A DNA stretch of 64,000 nt from NCBI GenBank assembly GCA_937625935.1, contig OW569345.1, positions 558,001-622,000 of the forward strand, given 5' to 3'. The position numbers and the translations under genes were made by a program. Position 1 is the first letter of the stretch. Each line of letters begins with the position of its first letter. Positions 3,535 to 64,000 of this stretch are shown here, one piece after another. Source of the stretch: Tetramitus jugosus (taxonomy: Eukaryota > Heterolobosea > Eutetramitea > Acrasida > Vahlkampfiidae). The notes below the pieces were generated by a model. The model searched no databases. It was not told where the DNA came from and saw only the letters and a list, made by a program, of their open reading frames with translations.

Positions 3535-4103
3535 GGTTTCTAGAGAGTTCTGTTTGCTGTTGTTGGTGAATTTGTGTCAAATGTGATGATACTTGTTTTT
3601 GTTTTGCTTTGATCTTGTGACCTGATTTTCTTGAACTCCAGAGCACAGTAGACGCAGAACTTGGGCGGGAGGTTCCTGCAAAAAAAGATTTGTAATCTTC
3701 GGAATTCAAATTGAACTCAATAGTCCGACTTTCATTCCCTCACGAAAAGGTTGTAATTTTCAAGAAAAGGAAGGTGAAATACAATTTACTGAAACGGAAG
3801 GCTTAAGGTTGATTTTCATAATTTTATTGACATTGTTGGGTATGAACGAATGATGCATGTGAGACATCTCAACACACAATATTCAAAGTGTGGAAAGTAA
3901 GTAATGGGTCATCTTGGTCGGACAGAGCATGTGGTGGATGGGTCACACTCATCACATGCACACAGGGAGCAAATGTCGTTCAACAACAACAACAAGAACA
4001 TATAAAGAATACTTGTTTCGTCATCGTTGCTCAACCAAGTGTGTTTCCACTCTCAACGGTGTCCGTCCAACATGACCTACGTAAATTTCGAGACTCAAAA
4101 AAT
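3535..4103. other. Spacer between the OB-fold gene start and the GAR1 stop
   Basis: This 569-bp spacer contains the upstream region of the OB-fold gene and the 3' end of GAR1, both on the minus strand. A 70-codon minus frame at 3497-3709 overlaps the OB-fold start and looks like untranslated leader. I see nothing else. Confidence 0.4.
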
Positions 4104-34049: not shown

Positions 34050-34124
34050 TTTTTCTGCGGTCGCAATGGATGACTATATTGTTGTTAAGTTAGATGCCGA
34101 AGGCATCGAATACCACATTTTAAT
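34050..34124 (+). pseudogene. FkbM-like methyltransferase gene, left fragment, cut by element A
   Basis: The frame reads VAMDDYIVVKLDAEGIEYHI and runs into the mobile unit. Methyltransferase FkbM-type proteins carry DxVVxKxDxEGxExxVL at this point, an almost exact match. The remaining part of the same domain starts directly on the other side of the element (38118-38261). No upstream exon is seen; a possible acceptor ends at 34048. The right edge TTAAT (34120-34124) is repeated at the far junction. A gene fragment of this size cannot be functional. Confidence 0.75.
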
Positions 34125-34165
34125 TGTCCACAAAAAATACATACGCCTTTAACAAATCATTCTGT

Positions 34166-34647
34166 TTATTGATTAACAACTCTCCACCCTCCAGGTACCA
34201 ATTCAAATTGTTCCCATGAACATGCCAAGTAGAATCCCTTCCACTTCACATAACCATACCAAGAACCATTTTGATACTTCCAATCCAGAACATCATCAAT
34301 TTGATAGAACTGTCCATTGGAGGTGTAGTTTTGGTGAATGTGACAGTACTGGGTTCCACGTTTCCTTTGCAATTTGCACGGTAAGCCTGACTTGCAAACG
34401 GCCAAACAGTATGAGTACAAATTGTCCATATAAGACCTTATTGTTGATAGATTATTGACCATCGAAGATCGAAAATCCCGACACGTCAATACCAAATTCA
34501 ACATCTTCTACACCAAGGAACGAACCAACTAGATACACAAATAAATCAATATGTATATCGGTTATCGGTTCTTACTTTTCTTTTGACTCCAAACTTTACC
34601 AATTGTTGGTTATGTCTTCTTTTGGCGCCTTTTCCTTGTTTTCCCAT
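34166..34647 (-). pseudogene. Accessory F-box/zinc-knuckle/chromodomain-like gene, copy A, frameshifted
   Basis: The ATG at 34647 opens with MGKQGKGAKRRHN, a basic start missing from copy B. The frame is lost by a 4-base insertion (near 34550) in front of the F-box-like part and by a 2-base deletion (GTG to G, near 34505) inside it. The rest is open: CRDFRSSMVNN, then CKSGLPCKLQRKRGTQYCHIH (zinc-knuckle-like), then a chromodomain-like segment FYQIDDVLDWKYQNG...GYVKWKGFYLACSWEQF. The reading frames can be compared with copy B, where this middle and C-terminal part is intact. Not functional as it stands. Confidence 0.75.
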
Positions 34648-34660
34648 TTGTTCATTGATT

Positions 34661-34926
34661 TTTTTCATCAAAAAAACTTGCAAAAAACAGAAAACAAACA
34701 CTCTGAAGGACATCGTGAGAGCGAGTGACCTGATGATGAGTATGAGTTTTCTGACGTTTGTCAAATTCTGTCCTATTGATACCATTAGAGATTTTTCATC
34801 AAAAAAAACTTGCAAAAAACAGAAAACAAACACTCTGAAGGACATCGTGAGAGCGAGTGACCTGATGATGAGTGTGAGTTTTCTGAAGTTTGTCAAATTC
34901 TGTCCTACTATTGATACCATTAGAGA
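34661..34926 (+). repeat. Tandem duplication in element A, two units of about 131-135 bp
   Basis: The stretch from TTTTTCATCA to GATACCATTAGAGA occurs twice, at 34661-34791 and 34792-34926. The units differ by a few bases, for example CCTATTGATACC against CCTACTATTGATACC. Copy B has only one. The unit contains the start of the VPS35-derived part (in frame LKDIV..SDLMM). Confidence 0.85.
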
Positions 34927-34936
34927 GGTGTTGAAT

Positions 34937-35561
34937 TGTCCGATAACTTGAGTATTCAGATCTCATTGATGACACTTGCTCTTCAAACATATCCTGATAA
35001 CACTGACTATGTCAACAAGATTATTAATAACATTGCTAGTCAATTGAATAGCACTGCACTTGCTTCAGATGAAATTGTAGACATGTTGAAGCGATTGTTG
35101 TTGGTGCCACTCGAGTCATACAACAATGTGCTAACAGTTTTGAAGTTGGAGAAGTATGGTGATATTATTCATTCTCTTGGATATGAACAGAGAAAGTTTA
35201 TTGCACTGAGCATTGTGAGATGCGCACTTGACAATGGACACAAGATTTCAACATTTGAACAAGTGAACAAACCGTTTGATTTGATTCGTCCACTGTTGAA
35301 GACCAGACAACATTCTCACCTTCTGACGACTCACCAATAGCTGCAACATTGCTCGAAGATTTCGAAGAAGAACAGAACTTGATTGCCAGATTGGTTCATT
35401 TGTTTGACAATAGCGATTCTGATCAATTGTTTAAAGTTTTGGCCGCAGCCAGAAAGCACTTTGGTCAGAGTGGTGTCAAGAGAATTCAATACACATTGGT
35501 ACCGCTTGTATTCTCCTACTTGAAACTTGCTCAGAGAATCTACAATGCACACTGCAAATAG
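34937..35561 (+). pseudogene. VPS35 retromer fragment in element A, frameshifted
   Basis: The translated part reads LSIQISLMTLALQTYP, LKRLLLVPLESYNNVLTVLK, YGDIIHSLGYEQRKF, then stops. This matches the middle of VPS35 (retromer cargo-recognition subunit, alpha-solenoid). A 10-base deletion after CTGTTGAAG (relative to copy B) shifts the frame in front of the EEQNLIARLVHLF part. There is no ATG at the front; the VPS35 frame enters from upstream (IDTIREVLN) with a one-base shift. The fragment covers roughly a quarter of VPS35, so it cannot work as VPS35. Confidence 0.82.
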
Positions 35562-35900
35562 ACACCTCTTGTCGACTCTCCATCTTTTTTGATTGATTTG
35601 GTTGTTGTTGTTGCTGATGTTCGTTGTGCGACTTGTGTTTTTCGTTGTTGTTGTCGTGTCAGAGAGAAAGTTTTTCGTTGGTTCAAGATTGGATCGATAG
35701 GTGGAGATATTATAAAAAAATACAATAAATGTTGTATCAGTTTCTTCTAAGCTGCGGAATTGGTGCAGTTGTAACAATTTCCGTTGAGACTGTCTTTACA
35801 ACGGCAACGGCCATCTACCTCGGTTTAAAAAGCGCTGTCTTTTTCGCTGTTTGATTCAACTCACACAACAAATACAACACACAACAAATACAATAACATT
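35562..35900 (+). other. Fanzor upstream region in element A
   Basis: This 339-bp spacer separates the VPS35 fragment from the Fanzor ATG. It contains GTT-rich stretches, a TATAAAAA at about 35710 and an AACAAATACAAC-rich leader directly before the ATG. It probably holds the Fanzor promoter. The same spacer, also 339 bp, is found in copy B. Confidence 0.5.
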
Positions 35901-38028
35901 ATGCCACGAGGCGTGCCTAAGGACGGCAAGAGAAAGAGAAAGAGAGAGACTGTCAAAAAGAATGAATACTCATCACATTACGTGGTCAAGGTCGGTCTGA
36001 AGTCTCTGTTGTTGCATCATCCAACTCTGTTACCAATCATACAGACTCAAGCTCTGGAGATTACAAGGATTGCTCTTCGGCTCACAAGATTTATAAACAT
36101 ATTAGTTTTGAGGCACTTGGAGTCTGACTATCAAATCCCTTTATTAGATCAAGTGTTTCTTCAAAGATTAGGTTCTGTGTTGTTTGGACGCAATTCAAAA
36201 CCAAGAGACAATAACTTAAGTCTCATCAACGAGTCTGTCAACATGGACGATGTAGTAGTCAAACTCAGAAAGATTTATCAGAGTTTTGCCACGTCCATCA
36301 ATTATGTTGCCAGGTCTCTCAATGTCAACATCTCCAACATGCTCAAGTTCACATTGGAACCAAGACTGAGGAAGTATCTGAGGGTCAGAATCAATCAACT
36401 ACACAGTGATTCATCTATCCCAAAGTTAGAACAAAGAAGGGTTGTTGAGTTTATTATCAGAAGGTTGACATTTAGCACTCCAGTCCATGATTTTATCAAA
36501 TTGCCTCCAAAAGAGTTGATAGAGACGATTCCTGTGTTGATCCGAGAGGTTCGAACACTTGTTGGTGCTAAAACTGATGAAGTAATTGATGAATCATTTG
36601 TGAAGAACAACACCAATAACATGCTGAAGTTTTACTGGCATGTTCAACAATTTCTGATCAACAATGATATGAAATCGTTTGCACTACTTCCTTTGTCTCA
36701 TTTCAAGTGCAGGTGTATGGAGATTGGTACAAAGGAATTAGTTGATATGCTTAAACAGAAGAAGAAACAAGGAAGACAAAAGAAGGACGATGAGTCAACT
36801 GAATTGAATTACAATCTCAAGTGTTTGAATGTTGGAACAAAGAAAATTCAGATTGATTCAATCAGAACGGATGGTATCCAGGCCTCTGTTGTCGTCAGAC
36901 ACGAGCTAATTGGAAATCATAAGAATAACAAAGCAAAGGAATCCAAGGACATGAAAGAAGCAAAGAAGAGAAAGAAAGAAGCAAAATTGAATGAAGGTGC
37001 CGAATACTTGATTGGTGTTGATCCTGGTATCGTCACTTTGATGTCTTGTACTGACAGTGATAGTAGAAAGTGGGAGTTCTCCAACAAAACATACAGACAT
37101 CTATCCCATCATTCAAAGAACTCCAAGCGATTGTTGAAATACAAAGCAGAATGGAACGAAATGAATGAGAAGAACTTGGATGAACTCCAAAACTCAATCA
37201 AACAGGCCGGTGTATCAACAAGTGGTCTGTTCCTTGAACACATCAATTCTGTATTGAAAGTCGAGGATGATTTGTTGAATTTTTATTGCACCCCAAAGGT
37301 GAAGAGACTGAATTGGGATAGCTATATAATGAGAGATAAGACGATTGCCAATGTTATGAATGACTTTCGAAAGAGAGCAAATGGAAGAAGCATGTTAATT
37401 GGGATGGGCAATGCTGGTTTTGGTCATTGTTACAAAGGACATGCTCCAACACCAAAAGGGAGCGTCCAGATATTATTTCTTACGCACCCCCTAGGGAGGG
37501 GGTCTGAGAAATTTATTCAATATTTTATTCATAGGGGGTCTCTTGATCCCAATCCTAGTAGGAGAATTAATGTAACGTTCGAATTTACAGGAAAATGTTT
37601 TATTCAAATTTATTCAAAACAGGCAGGGAGGGGGTCAGAGGTGAATATAATATCTGGACGCTCCCAAAGGAAAGCTATTGAAAAAGTTGAATGAGCACTT
37701 CAATGTGAAAATGATCGACGAGTTCATGACAAGTCAGAAATGTCATCATTGCCATTCTCACATGAAGCCAGTCAAGCATAAGAGAATAGACAAGAATGGA
37801 GCGTTGAATGTCTCTGTCGTCCGAGGAGTTAAACAGTGTGCAACCACTAAATGTTTAGTGACTCACAACAGAGACATCAATGCGGCCAAGAACATGCTCC
37901 ATCTACTGAGAACAGAAATGGATGGACAGCCACGTCCCGATGCCTTCAAGAGGAAGAAAAAGGTCGCAAAAGAATTAATCAAAATGGTGGAACACCTCCA
38001 AGGCTCACTCCATCAAGCTGCTATGTAA
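35901..38028 (+). pseudogene. Fanzor (TnpB-like RNA-guided nuclease), copy A, broken by a MITE
   Basis: The N-terminal part and the RuvC-I region (EYLIGVDPGIVTLMSC) are open from the ATG at 35901. At 37458 a 208-bp MITE interrupts the gene between APTPKG and KLLKKLNEHF. The frame runs on through the insert, shifts and stops at 37692-37694. The C-terminal part (KMIDEFMTSQKCHHCH, zinc finger, HNRDINAAKNM) continues in another frame to 38028. Loss of the alternative Glu, zinc finger and RuvC-III Asp should abolish nuclease activity. Outside the insert it is nearly the same as copy B, for example Ile/Met and Leu/Ser changes near residues 165-174. Confidence 0.93.
37455..37668. mobile_element. 208-bp MITE inside Fanzor copy A
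   Basis: The insert 37458-37665 has perfect 18-bp terminal inverted repeats, GGGAGCGTCCAGATATTA at the left and its reverse complement at the right. It is flanked by AAA (37455-37457 and 37666-37668), where copy B has only one AAA at the empty site, so the target-site duplication is 3 bp. It encodes nothing. TIRs that begin GGG and a 3-bp duplication fit a PIF/Harbinger-type MITE, though the AAA target is not the usual TWA. The comparison with copy B makes the boundaries certain. Confidence 0.93.
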
Positions 38029-38116
38029 GTCCCGATTATGTAGGAGCGTTAAGGTGTCTTATCGGGAAATCATAATTTTTTATTATGGTTTGATCGACAG
38101 TAGACCGCCACCTTAA
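38029..38116 (+). ncRNA. Candidate Fanzor guide-RNA scaffold, copy A
   Basis: Directly after the Fanzor stop, TCCCGAT pairs with ATCGGGA around a loop that contains TTAAGGTG (38049-38056). A second hairpin (ATCATAAT with ATTATGGT) follows. The shared sequence ends in CACCTTAA (38109-38116), which is the exact complement of the loop, so a pseudoknot can form at the element's very end. TnpB and Fanzor guide RNAs come from this place and often end in such a pseudoknot. The guide would then be host sequence after 38116, starting TCGATATG. Transcription is not shown. Confidence 0.6.
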
Positions 38117-38117
38117 T

Positions 38118-38261
38118 CGATATGATGAAGCTGGTGCAATCAACTATGTTGATTTATTGTTGTGTGAGTACCATGAATGGATGGAGCCATATCCGGGTTT
38201 GGGTTGGAATTTGAGGTATATTCTGACCAAGATGGGTGTCAAGCAAGGTACTTGGATCTAG
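38118..38261 (+). pseudogene. FkbM-like methyltransferase gene, right fragment
   Basis: The frame reads EAGAINYVDLLLCEYHEWME and on to PYPGLGWNLRYILTKMG, ending in TAG at 38259-38261. Methyltransferase FkbM-type domains have ...AGxIxxxDELxxExH here. It continues the left fragment at 34050-34124. Joining the flanks with one TTAAT leaves the two frames out of register by one base, so there was also a later one-base loss, or the junction is slightly different. Confidence 0.72.
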
Positions 38262-59673: not shown

Positions 59674-60309
59674 CTATTTGCAGTGTGCATTGTAGATTCT
59701 CTGAGCAAGTTTCAAGTAGGAGAATACAAGCGGTACCAATGTGTATTGAATTCTCTTGACACCACTCTGACCAAAGTGCTTTCTGGCTGCGGCCAAAACT
59801 TTAAACAATTGATCAGAATCGCTATTGTCAAACAAATGAACCAATCTGGCAATCAAGTTCTGTTCTTCTTCGAAATCTTCGAGCAATGTTGCAGCTATTG
59901 GTGAGTCGTCAGAAGGTGAGAATGTTGTTTGGTCTTCCTCATCCTTCAACAGTGGACGAATCAAATCAAACAGTTTGTTCACTTGTTCAAATGTTGAAAT
60001 CTTGTGTCCATTGTCAAGTGCGCATCTCACAATGCTCAGTGCAATAAACCTTCTCTGTTCATATCCAAGAGAATGAATAATATCACCATACTTCTCCAAC
60101 TTCAAAACTGTTAGCACATTGTTGTATGACTCGAGTGGCACCAACAACAATCGCTTCAACATGTCTACAATTTCATCTGAAGCAAGTGCAGTGCTATTCA
60201 ATTGACTAGCAATGTTATTAATAATCTTGTTGACATAGTCAGTGTTATCAGGATATGTTTGAAGAGCAAGTGTCATCAATGAGATCTGAATACTCAAGTT
60301 ATCGGACAA
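59674..60309 (-). pseudogene. VPS35 retromer fragment in copy B
   Basis: An open 211-codon part matches the middle of VPS35: ISLMTLALQTYPDNTDYVNK, LKRLLLVPLESYNN, EEQNLIARLVHLFDNSD, ARKHFGQSGVKRIQYTL, PLVFSYLKLAQRI. It ends NAHCK-stop, far short of VPS35's C-terminus. There is no ATG at the front; the frame opens with TTG after an out-of-frame IDTIREVLN. The same one-base shift is in copy A, so it predates the split of the copies. It is captured host sequence and cannot make full VPS35. Confidence 0.85.
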
Positions 60310-60445
60310 TTCAACACCTCTCTAATGGTATCAATAGTAGGACAGAATTTGACAAACTTCAGAAAACTCACACTCATCATCAGGTCACTCGCATTCACGA
60401 TGTCCTTCAGAGTGTTTGTTTTCTGTTTTTTGCAAGTTTTTTTGA

Positions 60446-60925
60446 AAACAAGGAAAAGGCGCCAAAAGAAGACATAACCAACACCAACAATTGGTAAAGT
60501 TTGGAGTCAAAAGAAAAGTAAGAATAACCGATATACATATTGATTTATTTGTGTATCTAGTTGGTTCGTTCCTTGGTGTAGAAGATGTGTTGAATTTGGT
60601 ATTGACGTGTCGGGATTTTCGATCTTCGATGGTCAATAATCTATCAACAATAAGGTCTTATATGGACAATTTGTACTCATACTGTTTGGCCGTTTGCAAG
60701 TCAGGCTTACCGTGCAAATTGCAAAGGAAACGTGGAACCCAGTACTGTCACATTCACCAAAACTACACCTCCAATGGACAGTTCTATCAAATTGATGATG
60801 TTCTGGATTGGAAGTATCAAAATGGTTCTTGGTATGGTTATGTGAAGTGGAAGGGATTCTACTTGGCATGTTCATGGGAACAATTTGAATTGGTACCTGG
60901 AGGGTGGAGAGTTGTTAATCAATAA
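60446..60925 (+). pseudogene. Accessory F-box/zinc-knuckle/chromodomain-like gene, copy B, start lost
   Basis: The frame is open for 159 codons from a TGA to the stop at 60925, but has no early ATG. A 26-base deletion relative to copy A removed the ATG and left a TGA just in front. The part present is KQGKGAKRRHN (basic), IDLFVYLVGSFLGVEDVLNL (F-box-like), CRDFRSSM, CKSGLPCKLQRKRGTQYCHI (zinc-knuckle-like, CxxGxxCK...YCxxH), and a chromodomain-like end FYQIDDVLDW...VKWKGF...SWEQFELV. A start from an unusual codon cannot be excluded. It is divergent to Fanzor within the unit. Confidence 0.72.
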
Positions 60926-60961
60926 ACAGAATGATTTGTTAAAGGCGTATGTATTTTTTGT

Positions 60962-61252
60962 TTTGTGTATTACAATTTGTAAGAATGTTTTTGTAAAGTT
61001 AAACTATTGTCTCGTATATGTTTTTTTAATTGTAGTGTGAAGAATATACATGATGAGAAGACGAGGGAGGCAAAGATTCAGATGATCAAGTTGTATGGCT
61101 TTAGTGGGGAATTCCGGAGCGTTTGAATAGATTGCACGTGCAGCGGATATAAATCCTTCTTTTGCAGCTTCAAGATATGTCCTTAAAAAACACAAACACC
61201 AAGGGGAAGTTGAGAACAACAGCAACAACAACACCGAGGAAGAAACAAACTG
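60962..61252. other. Right flank of copy B
   Basis: A minus frame (within 61004-61187) reads TYLEAAKEGFISAARAIYSN and then PEFPTKAIQLDH, following a possible splice acceptor TTTTTTAAG. It looks like a coding remnant of an unknown gene, cut off near 61023. The 13-mer of copy B's left edge (GATATGTCCTTAA) recurs at 61174-61186. The leader of the next gene covers the rest. Confidence 0.4.
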
Positions 61253-64000
61253 ATGCGAGGTCTTCACGAAACAGAGGACATCACAGAGATATCCCCTTCT
61301 GAATCCATCAACAATGAAATGTGCACGGGCACATCACCTTCGCAGTCTCCTGTGACAATTTGTGACAACAACGACAAATCGAGCGAGACGGCTCAACAAA
61401 CACCTGAACAACAACAACCACAACAAGAACCTGTAATTCATCATCACCAACAACAACAACAAGAAACACCACCTTCACCTTTCCCAGCACCTTCTGCACT
61501 ACTCATGATTCCTTGGAGCATTGAAGAAACTGCTGTGGTCGTTACACCGGAAATATTTGCGCGCGCGGGACAATTACCGAAAGGACCACCGACGGAGATG
61601 GAGGAGCTCCGCCACACAACAAACAACAACACAGCCAAAATCGACATCTCCAACACCAACACCACAACAAGCATCAACACAGGCAAAATCGACACCGCGA
61701 CCAACATCAACATTCACCACACCAATAATAGCAATAATAATATTGTTCTTATTGATACTATTTATAGTAATAGCGGCAGTAGTGAACCACTCAACAGAGA
61801 GGAAGAAGAAGAAGAAAAACATTGTGTCATCATTTCTGACATTCAAATGTTTTCCCTTCCACCACTGCATCATGATGAAAAAACCCAGACTACTCCAATC
61901 ATAGAAACAATGACAAATAACACTACGAGTAGTACTGTGCCGTACATGATGAAAATGGAGGGTGAAGCTGATTGTTCAGATGATGATGAAGAAGAAGAGG
62001 CACAACAAGAACAGAATCACACTGTCGTCACTGCAACTACTACACCAACAACAACAATAGCAAGTGAGGAAAATGAGAATTTTTGTGACAAAAATGATGA
62101 AAAACAAACAACAACAACTGCAATGGCAGTCGTAGTAGTACCACTGGCAGACAATCATTCAGAAACAGAAACAACAATAGAAACAGAAGAAGAAGCAAAT
62201 GCTGTTCCATTGCTGTCTTTTTCAGTACCTGCAATAGTGTCATCACCATCTTCATCATCTCCACTACTGTTTTCAGAAGCAGAAAAAATTTTGAAAATTC
62301 AAGAAAATGTCATTGCCGAACTCAACTTGGAACAAATTCATGAAGATGATGATGATGATCATAGTGATGTCAGTAATGATAATGATAGTGACAGTGATGA
62401 AACCAGTACGAGTAGTCATAGTGATGCCAACAATACAACAGTCATTGAAAGAACAAGTCATGGGAATCAAAGTTTGAACAACAATGATGAGGAGTCAAAT
62501 AATAATGATGATGACGCTTCCACTGTATCTTCTCTTTTTGACAGTGACTCTGACAGTGACACCGATTTCGGCGAAAATATCGGAGAAAAAAAGCCAAATG
62601 CAGCAACAAATCAGAACAGGAATGAAAACAAGGATAACAAGACAACGACGTCGTTAGATGAGGAGCAATTTGTGCAAGTGGTCAATCACAAGAATCCACT
62701 CATTTCATCAGTGATCAAAATTCCAAAACTTCACTTGGGAGACATCATTGAAGAAACGATTCAAATTCTCAATAGCAAAGACACGATTGAAACCACCGTT
62801 TACACGGATGGTAGTAGCAGCAATCTGAGCAATTTGAGTAATAGAAGCAATCGAAGCAATGGTAGTCGTCGTAGCTCGATCGTCTTACAGAATAGCAGTA
62901 CGAGAGAAATGGCTTCACCATCGCCCTTTTCATTGCCTTCGTTGGAACGAATGTACAACAAGGAAATTTCGGCGTCGTCGACGTCATATCCTCATTACTA
63001 TCATTCGTCGACGGGCACGACAACGACAACTGCGACTGGAGCATTGAATTCCTTTCGCAGTGATCGTCCGTCTCTCACTCGAAAGATATTTACGATACCT
63101 GCATCGGTGATTGAGCCGTCATCTTCGTCATCGTCATTGTCGTTGTCATCGTCTTCATTGTTGAGTCATTCTGCTCATCATGACCACGCTGCTGTGACTC
63201 ATAACGATGATAGAGAAGCAGAAGAAGCAGCAGAAGAGGGATCATTGACACCTAGGCCATTATCATCATCCTTTTCTTCTCAGTTCAACAAGGGTTCATT
63301 CTCAATGTCATCATCGTCTTCATCCATGTCGCGGCACTCATCCTCATCGTCCATTTCATCACTATCATCCTCCATGTTTCTGCTGCACGATGATTTGAAC
63401 TCGTTTGATTTTTCGTTGAGTGACAAAACTCCAATGAACAGTGCAAGAACAGATACGAGTCGATGTAACTCTGCAAGGAACAGTGAATCGTTTGTGCATC
63501 CAACGAATTTGTTGAGTACGAGTGGTGGTGCAACGAGTTCGTTTTTGACCAGTGGTAGTTATCAGACACCATCTCTGTTGTCAAAGAAGAGGAGTCATGA
63601 GCGTATACAGAGCTTCCAGGCTCATCACCAATCAAAATCGTTGCCAAGCAGTAACAATACTTTGGCTACTGTTGGCAGTGCAATTATACAAGAGACAACT
63701 CCTGCCGCTACTAGTAAGGGTAAGGACTTGAGAAATGCGACGTACCAAGGAAACCACGATTCATTCACCGTGTCAGATTTGCGAATACGACCAAAAACAG
63801 TGAGTTATATGAACAATGATCCTTCTCTGCCTTCCATTGATTCACACAGTGCTCGCAAGAGTCTCTATTCTTCATACAAGATGAGCACCAATCATAATAA
63901 GCAGATGAGCGGTAATGTAGCTGTCAATGGTGATCATCAGCCATCACCCTCCATGTTCAGCATGAATTCTCCACAATTGTCATTGTCCAACAATAGTCGT
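61253..64000 (+). CDS. Large low-complexity Ser/Asn/Asp/Glu-rich protein, partial at right edge
   Basis: The frame is open from an ATG at 61253 to the window end (916 codons), so the C-terminus is outside. The first 500 residues are rich in Thr, Asn, Gln and acidic runs. One hydrophobic stretch, IVLIDTIYSN in style, is too short and polar for a sure TM helix. From about residue 450 there are Ser-rich blocks broken by short conserved-looking parts such as IKIPKLHLGDIIEETIQIL and LTRKIFTIPASV. A catalytic domain could lie beyond the window, as in many protist kinases or GTPase regulators. I do not recognise the family. Confidence 0.65.
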   Translation, partial: MRGLHETEDITEISPSESINNEMCTGTSPSQSPVTICDNNDKSSETAQQTPEQQQPQQEPVIHHHQQQQQETPPSPFPAPSALLMIPWSIEETAVVVTPEIFARAGQLPKGPPTEMEELRHTTNNNTAKIDISNTNTTTSINTGKIDTATNINIHHTNNSNNNIVLIDTIYSNSGSSEPLNREEEEEEKHCVIISDIQMFSLPPLHHDEKTQTTPIIETMTNNTTSSTVPYMMKMEGEADCSDDDEEEEAQQEQNHTVVTATTTPTTTIASEENENFCDKNDEKQTTTTAMAVVVVPLADNHSETETTIETEEEANAVPLLSFSVPAIVSSPSSSSPLLFSEAEKILKIQENVIAELNLEQIHEDDDDDHSDVSNDNDSDSDETSTSSHSDANNTTVIERTSHGNQSLNNNDEESNNNDDDASTVSSLFDSDSDSDTDFGENIGEKKPNAATNQNRNENKDNKTTTSLDEEQFVQVVNHKNPLISSVIKIPKLHLGDIIEETIQILNSKDTIETTVYTDGSSSNLSNLSNRSNRSNGSRRSSIVLQNSSTREMASPSPFSLPSLERMYNKEISASSTSYPHYYHSSTGTTTTTATGALNSFRSDRPSLTRKIFTIPASVIEPSSSSSSLSLSSSSLLSHSAHHDHAAVTHNDDREAEEAAEEGSLTPRPLSSSFSSQFNKGSFSMSSSSSSMSRHSSSSSISSLSSSMFLLHDDLNSFDFSLSDKTPMNSARTDTSRCNSARNSESFVHPTNLLSTSGGATSSFLTSGSYQTPSLLSKKRSHERIQSFQAHHQSKSLPSSNNTLATVGSAIIQETTPAATSKGKDLRNATYQGNHDSFTVSDLRIRPKTVSYMNNDPSLPSIDSHSARKSLYSSYKMSTNHNKQMSGNVAVNGDHQPSPSMFSMNSPQLSLSNNSR

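Follow-up and report, generated by a model that had tools for sequence, protein, structure and literature searches.

Two inverted copies of a block that combines a Fanzor gene, coding for a eukaryotic TnpB relative, with an F-box-like gene and a fragment of VPS35 lie in a stretch of 64,000 nucleotides from Tetramitus jugosus (contig OW569345.1, C2:558001-622000; hereafter the window), which raises the question of whether the three parts move as one unit and what traces the nuclease has left in the genome. The preliminary description placed copy A at 34130-38116 and copy B at 57330-60961, and both are present there, A on the plus strand and B on the minus strand. We compared them with related copies from the whole genome (26.35 Mb, 56 contigs), where copy A as query gave at least 99 matching rows from the 40 candidates scored out of 104; 20 fetched copies were set in one orientation together with A and B before ends were compared. 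A and B are damaged copies from a family of inverted-repeat DNA transposons that insert at TTAA and encode Fanzor1; in this family, left-truncated copies strongly prevail over right-truncated ones. Some of the former repeat TTAA and 9 to 22 further nucleotides (nt) of their right flank at the break, and we consider it probable that these scars stem from guided Fanzor cuts in the empty site, with repair proceeding from the right side.

A TTAA-inserting transposon family encoding Fanzor1

Complete copies carry inverted repeats beginning with TTAAGG and fall into three end-and-body types. Type I (TTAAGGTGGC[C/G]GTCCACTG; 4.3-4.6 kb) comprises loci L010, L011 and L023, type II (TTAAGGATGTAGTTCG; 3.4-4.0 kb) L012, L014-L017, L021 and L022, and type III (TTAAGGTGGCGGTCTACC; 2.6-2.8 kb), containing Fanzor alone, L024-L028, L030 and L032. 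Two ends are likewise present in L020, L029, L031, L033 and L048, which match these types less closely; L033, having a diverged left end, is not counted as truncated. Locus L050 did not match the element. At least 39 right ends and at least 24 left ends were counted, lower bounds that omit the one-mismatch end matches at C15:15258, C6:481148, C8:617477, C9:128853 and C32:442476. In 16 of the 24 counted left ends TTAAGG is followed by CGTATAAATAG within 10-32 bases, several others showing variants, and this motif is possibly a promoter.

TTAA is very probably the target-site duplication, a reading that rests on junction overlaps, on host frames across a single TTAA and on one internal repeat. 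In a joined-flank search of 19 of the 22 complete copies, the junction overlap was 4 bases in nine copies, 5-8 bases in nine and 2 bases in L017, whose right end reads TTGG. Host reading frames were informative for L010, L012 and L024 only, the other frames being short: across a single TTAA they extend over 331, 297 and 340 amino acids (aa), compared with 117, 187 and 0 aa if two TTAA are kept and 272, 229 and 271 aa if none is. For L028 a frame of 253 aa is obtained without TTAA, but 232 of these belong to the left frame, which stops at the TAA of TTAA. The frame crossing the L010 site ends in a RING finger and that of L012 has a weak F-box match; no domain match was found for the frame interrupted by L024. 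In the gene struck by L010, an internal repeat passes the insertion point without a gap (88% identity) and can stand in for the empty site, a kind of paralogous proxy not found for the other 18 complete copies searched or for the five scarred copies. The right flank of L032 recurs at C12:332775-332853 (100%) and C17:407397-407493 (94%), from 35 and 17 bases past the junction.

The absence of inverted repeats and of a target duplication that defines Helitrons does not apply to these elements. Five elements (L010, L015, L024, L020, L021) contain no frame longer than 270 aa besides Fanzor and no recognisable piggyBac DDE transposase. An autonomous partner with the same ends was sought with the left-end pattern, which gave 16 matches, all of them at known Fanzor elements; searches with the ends likewise showed none beside a piggyBac match.

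The assignment of the nuclease to Fanzor1 was based on the motif D-X(125-275)-[TS][TS]XX-C4 finger-X-RD (PMC3627910; this and the other papers cited were available to us in part, and statements on them refer to those parts). The motif occurs in 17 of the 20 frames longer than 560 aa from 28 loci examined, the misses being L017 (deletion), copy A (insertion) and L034 (RG replacing RD). Together with similarity to SpuFz1 (chain 8gkh, E 3.9e-12, and 2.1e-21 with a profile) and a match to PF07282 (E 1.8e-9), this bears out the Fanzor call of the preliminary description and, by sequence criteria, the family nuclease is a Fanzor1. The ratio of nonsynonymous to synonymous divergence (dN/dS) is 0.14-0.20 in most of the printed Fanzor pairs and higher in the closest ones; it is 0.55 between the broken copy A and B. 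A minimal, distant Fanzor element with type II ends and a frame in two parts lies on C32 (L029:1500-3700, turned); its Fanzor is 42-44% identical in aa to that of copy B, and it is perhaps the source of the type II ends.

Some left-truncated copies carry TTAA-anchored duplications

Both ends are preserved in 22 copies, the right end alone in 17 and the left end alone in 2 (L018 and L019), a bias of 17:2 among the one-ended copies (sign test, p 0.0007); fragments with neither end also exist. Five of the 17 right-only copies repeat the right flank, beginning at TTAA, at their left break: TTAA plus 9 nt on C48 (13 bases), plus 11 in L046 (15 bases), plus 12 in L009 (16 bases), plus 20 in L042 (24 bases with 2 mismatches) and plus 22 in L043 (26 bases with one indel). 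Each duplication stops at most 3 bases from the start of element homology. Whole-genome searches with the joined scar sites found the loci themselves only, with the same overlaps. Mismatched flanks gave no such repeat in 272 pairs among truncated copies and one in 323 pairs against complete-copy flanks, and of 19 complete copies put to the same test only L010 passes, through trivial TTAAGGTG. The loop of one A/T hairpin, or a position beside it, is where three solo right ends, belonging to two end types, start (L043:1120, L044:1029, L055:134).

The right end as a predicted guide-RNA scaffold

In published Fanzors, the guide is the sequence beyond the right end (PMC10432273), and Fanzor1 scaffolds that absorb the target duplication have been reported (PMC10711439). 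The structured 3' end noted earlier for the present elements is borne out by type III, whose 118-nt right end is more stably folded than shuffled sequences (z -2.93), with TTAA unpaired in the fold. The right ends of A and B reach -39.1 and -38.5 kcal/mol over 150 nt in a fold unlike the type III one, and in the predicted fold of copy B internal TTAAGGTG (within 57388-57400) pairs with terminal CACCTTAA. Pairing of an internal TTAAGG with the terminal CCTTAA recurs in 12 of 19 distinct right ends of 150 nt, in L017 partly and including the distant L029. A search of Rfam with the right end gave no match.

Origin of the scars

In our explanation, the elements would be non-autonomous TTAA inverted-repeat transposons, probably moved in trans by a transposase that may, judging by the target site, be piggyBac-like. 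Their right end would form a structured guide-RNA scaffold running into the right flank, which would serve as the guide. After transposition, Fanzor would cut empty alleles of the same site at most about 20 nt past TTAA, the putative target-adjacent motif (TAM). The right side of the break, homologous to the donor, could then copy the right end inward, whereas the left piece would keep TTAA and up to about 20 nt, for which the donor left end has no counterpart. If copying stopped early and the ends were joined, a left-truncated copy with TTAA+n duplicated would result. An early stop in repair anchored on the right would thereby account for the excess of right ends, the left truncation and the limitation of the duplications to guide length. 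Repair among many similar copies could also reshuffle cargo, nuclease core and ends.

Several observations weigh against this explanation, which we nevertheless hold to be the likely one. No duplication is seen in 12 of the 17 left-truncated copies, A and B included. The lengths vary, and 9, 11 and 12 nt lie below the published minimum of 14 nt for the TTAA-type GtFz1, so that trimming must be assumed for three of the five duplications; for comparison, GtFz1, with TAM TTAAN, cuts after 14-17 and 14-16 nt, and SpuFz1 after 16-17 and 20-21 nt (PMC10432273). Because the search for truncated copies relied on the right-end motif or on right-end DNA, it would overlook any that have a different 3' end. 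The TTAA pairing is absent from 7 of the 19 right ends (L009, L014, L020, L030, L031, L032, L033). None of 12 piggyBac-type (PF13843) rows in the genome lies at a matching inverted repeat, one such locus (L040) having been read. Finally, the genome holds 73 reverse-transcriptase matches, so that an RNA-templated or LINE (long interspersed nuclear element)-assisted route could be envisaged, and the solo ends L041 and L042 begin at or near the first stem of the scaffold, for which an RNA template is simpler.

The last two points bear on a retrotransposition-like origin, in which transcripts or guide RNAs would be reverse-transcribed at a nicked target with LINE-like 5' truncation and variable duplications, as 5' truncation with duplications of 13-26 bp would suggest. 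We consider this unlikely, keeping it in view because reverse transcriptases are common and two solo ends lie near the first stem. All five duplications, however, begin at TTAA, the element's own target, and a retrocopy at another site should carry the guide of its donor. In addition, the right end runs straight into TTAA, without an A-tail, in the 17 right-only copies read, a feature that is partly built into the right-end search.

Aborted repair after excision by the transposase, or repair of an internal break from an empty homologue, would dispense with a Fanzor cut. Gap repair would account for the internal deletions of several copies, and an empty allele used as template would place right-flank bases behind the left TTAA. 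Excision, however, leaves TTAA alone on the left, an empty-allele template should yield long, variable tracts and not 9-22 nt, and neither process gives a reason for 17 right-only against 2 left-only copies. We judge this origin to be quite improbable.

Guided cutting could also be combined with an RNA template, the right DNA end of the cut target pairing with the guide and a reverse transcriptase copying scaffold and element RNA leftward, which would produce the solo right ends. Although we give this variant little credence, it would, if true, make Fanzor an RNA-guided target-primed retro-homing system and a natural counterpart of prime editing. That a transposase used the right end alone, as proposed by Bao and Jurka in 2013 for the Fanzor Helitron pattern of Chlamydomonas (PMC3627910), is extremely unlikely here, given two inverted repeats with TTAA on both sides and the expectation that a TTAA transposase acting on one end would leave a duplication of TTAA alone and not of TTAA plus 9-22 nt.

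Copies A and B in the window

The bodies of both copies are of type I; the left end is missing, and neither shows a recognisable left inverted repeat. Element sequence of copy B extends beyond the block first described, on to 61372. The features are as follows (window coordinates).

34130-38116, plus strand: copy A, left-truncated, with TTAA at the right end
34169-34645 (C2:592169-592645), minus strand: F-box/chromo-like gene of copy A, broken by 4 stops
34884-35551, plus strand: VPS35 fragment of copy A, with a 10-base deletion in the frame
35901-38028, plus strand: Fanzor gene of copy A, interrupted
37458-37665, no strand: 208-bp inverted-repeat insertion splitting the Fanzor gene of copy A, repeat GGGAGCGTCCAGATATTAT
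38000-38116, plus strand: right end of copy A, predicted guide-RNA scaffold, TTAA-terminated
38117-38136, plus strand: right flank, the expected guide of copy A by published Fanzor anatomy
57310-57329, minus strand: right flank, the expected guide of copy B by the same anatomy
57330-61372, minus strand: copy B, left-truncated, with internal deletions; right-end TTAA at 57330-57333
57330-57446, minus strand: right end of copy B, predicted guide-RNA scaffold
57418-59334, minus strand: Fanzor gene of copy B, open, 638 aa
59684-60361, minus strand: VPS35 fragment of copy B, open frame of 215 codons, preceded by the end of a host intron
60446-60925, plus strand: F-box/chromo-like gene of copy B, open

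The 208-bp insertion in copy A has stand-alone matches on C30, C8 and C50. For the gene described earlier as F-box, zinc-knuckle and chromodomain-like, we obtained hints only, all of them under the Pfam cut-offs (TRM13-CCCH, E 0.0017; F-box-like, E 0.14; Chromo, E 0.35).

Captured cargo and mosaic copies

The view that the block is a mobile, cargo-carrying RNA-guided-nuclease element is supported by complete copies with inverted repeats, TTAA on both sides and all three parts, and a segmental duplication of the 4-kb block can be ruled out, the block being scattered over many contigs with its own ends. Movement as a unit applies in part: all three parts occur together in complete elements of two end types, the F-box-like gene being shortened in one of these. 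As an obligatory unit, the three parts find no support, because 10 of the 31 Fanzor loci in the genome search (short fragments excluded, as in the VPS35 tallies) lack VPS35, an outcome that the preliminary description had named as contradicting it, and because cargo, core and ends are reassorted.

The VPS35 identification is confirmed by Pfam (PF03635, E 1.8e-44) and by near-identity at the DNA level to a resident gene on C22 (L039; 98.1% for copy B, 96.8% for copy A), whose closest named relative is from Naegleria gruberi (56%). The captured piece corresponds in most element copies to bases 1230-1910 of L039 and in L034 to bases 1377-2545; in L020-L022 it consists of bases 1230-1573 and 2174-2626, separated by an in-frame deletion of 600 bases, and reaches just beyond the native stop. 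The captured sequence includes 43 nt of intron. With a fragment of a resident host gene inside its inverted repeats, the element is, on sequence grounds, a gene-capturing (transduplicating) transposon, and VPS35 was probably taken from the resident gene in one event, followed by deletions. A comparison of 15 of the 21 copies with the host gene showed 19 differing sites, four of them common to all 15 copies and synonymous; the other 15 sites, 10 nonsynonymous and 5 synonymous, are close to neutral. Selection on VPS35 within the elements is unsupported by these counts, and VPS35 is probably a passenger, because its variants look near neutral.

For the F-box-like gene, host capture was considered and rejected, the best match outside the elements scoring 20.8 bits; the only homologues found were three metagenome fragments, 98-100% identical. 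Of the 21 element loci with VPS35 and Fanzor, 19 also have F-box-like sequence, the 10 further Fanzor loci having neither. This association and the many open VPS35 frames could suggest a co-adapted cargo unit, in which VPS35 and the F-box-like protein serve the element. We regard such a unit as very doubtful, given the Fanzor loci devoid of VPS35, the near-neutral variants and the truncation of the F-box-like gene in type II copies. Next to the divergent F-box-like gene, several copies (L010 at 3607-3879) have a tandem duplication of about 135 bp that straddles the beginning of the captured VPS35 sequence and is possibly a shared promoter.

Mosaicism is clearest in L031. Compared with copy B in 200-bp windows, it shows 98-100% identity over VPS35 and the stretch that follows, drops to 57-71% across eight windows in the Fanzor core, rises to 84% in the window behind them and reaches 99-100% at the right end. 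At finer resolution, about 330 terminal bases agree at 97-100%, apart from one 40-base block of 88%. Stretches of 801 bases of the L031 core recur at 99.4-99.5% on C1, with a type II right end, and on C19, with a type I right end; in L012, type II ends flank a Fanzor that is 94-100% identical to that of type III. Cargo and ends have therefore passed from one Fanzor lineage to another, and these lineages look older than the capture because synonymous divergence (dS) of Fanzor reaches about 1.7 for most L031 pairs, compared with 0.03-0.045 for VPS35 to host. A further mosaic is L020:2512-6592, in which a type III left end is joined to F-box, VPS35 and Fanzor parts and a small inverted piece.

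Comparison with known systems

PiggyBac transposons insert at TTAA, which they duplicate, and have inverted repeats. The present elements share target and repeats with them, but no transposase frame was present in the five elements read and no shared ends were found.

Among characterised nucleases, GtFz1 from Guillardia theta and SpuFz1 from Spizellomyces punctatus are likewise Fanzor1 proteins and cut 14-21 nt from the TAM (PMC10432273, PMC11423790). Like our copies, many SpuFz1 loci are flanked by inverted repeats, and 11 of these enclose additional genes, whereas the GtFz1 locus is said to lack inverted repeats, and the accessible parts of both papers describe no traces of cutting in the native genome. 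SFav-1-like Fanzor1 elements of insect viruses are similar in having 4-bp TTAN duplications, 13-bp inverted repeats and no known transposase (PMC3627910, PMC10711439); their inverted repeat and duplication are folded into the guide-RNA scaffold, with RNA reaching about 15 nt past the duplication. Unlike our family they are virus-borne, with neither captured VPS35 nor truncation scars mentioned in the available text. DFa-1, -2 and -3 of Dictyostelium fasciculatum (Sola2-type, PMC3627910) resemble the present mosaics in combining one shell with different Fanzor regions, their 5' parts being nearly identical and most of their Fanzor parts without similarity; they differ by Sola2 ends, AWWT duplications and a transposase in one family. 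In the spread of IS200/IS605 with TnpB (PMC11870625), the guide records the insertion site and empty sites are attacked, as in our proposal, but that case concerns bacterial plasmids and another transposase and was shown experimentally.

The closest counterpart of the scars is found in CRe-1, -2 and -3 of Chlamydomonas reinhardtii (PMC3627910). These are also Fanzor1 elements with 5'-truncated copies in excess and with duplications of about 7-19 bp beside a fixed motif (TTTT), seen in truncated copies only and not in those with a normal 5' end. They differ in having Helitron-type ends, without TTAA or such inverted repeats, and some duplications of 44-443 bp, and VPS35 cargo is not mentioned in the text available. 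Bao and Jurka saw the pattern in one of 200 copies of a Fanzor-less Helitron family and left open what part Fanzor plays in this difference (PMC3627910), and a 2023 Nature paper describes the biological role of Fanzor nuclease activity as unknown. In the mostly open-access literature searched, as far as it was accessible (PMC10432273, PMC10711439, PMC11423790, PMC12633428, PMC3627910 and PMC11870625 included), no link between such duplications and Fanzor cutting was found.

The elements are thus a variant of known Fanzor transposons, and the scars are the part worth following. Should our explanation hold, genome assemblies would record Fanzor cuts as motif+n scars, pointing to TAM and cut range of a Fanzor not yet studied without an experiment, and the reassortment of cargo, nuclease and ends would have a reason. 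The scar test can be applied to any genome with a multi-copy Fanzor family. Guided cutting of empty sites would also offer an answer to the Chlamydomonas puzzle of 2013 and suggest RNA-guided homing in a eukaryote.

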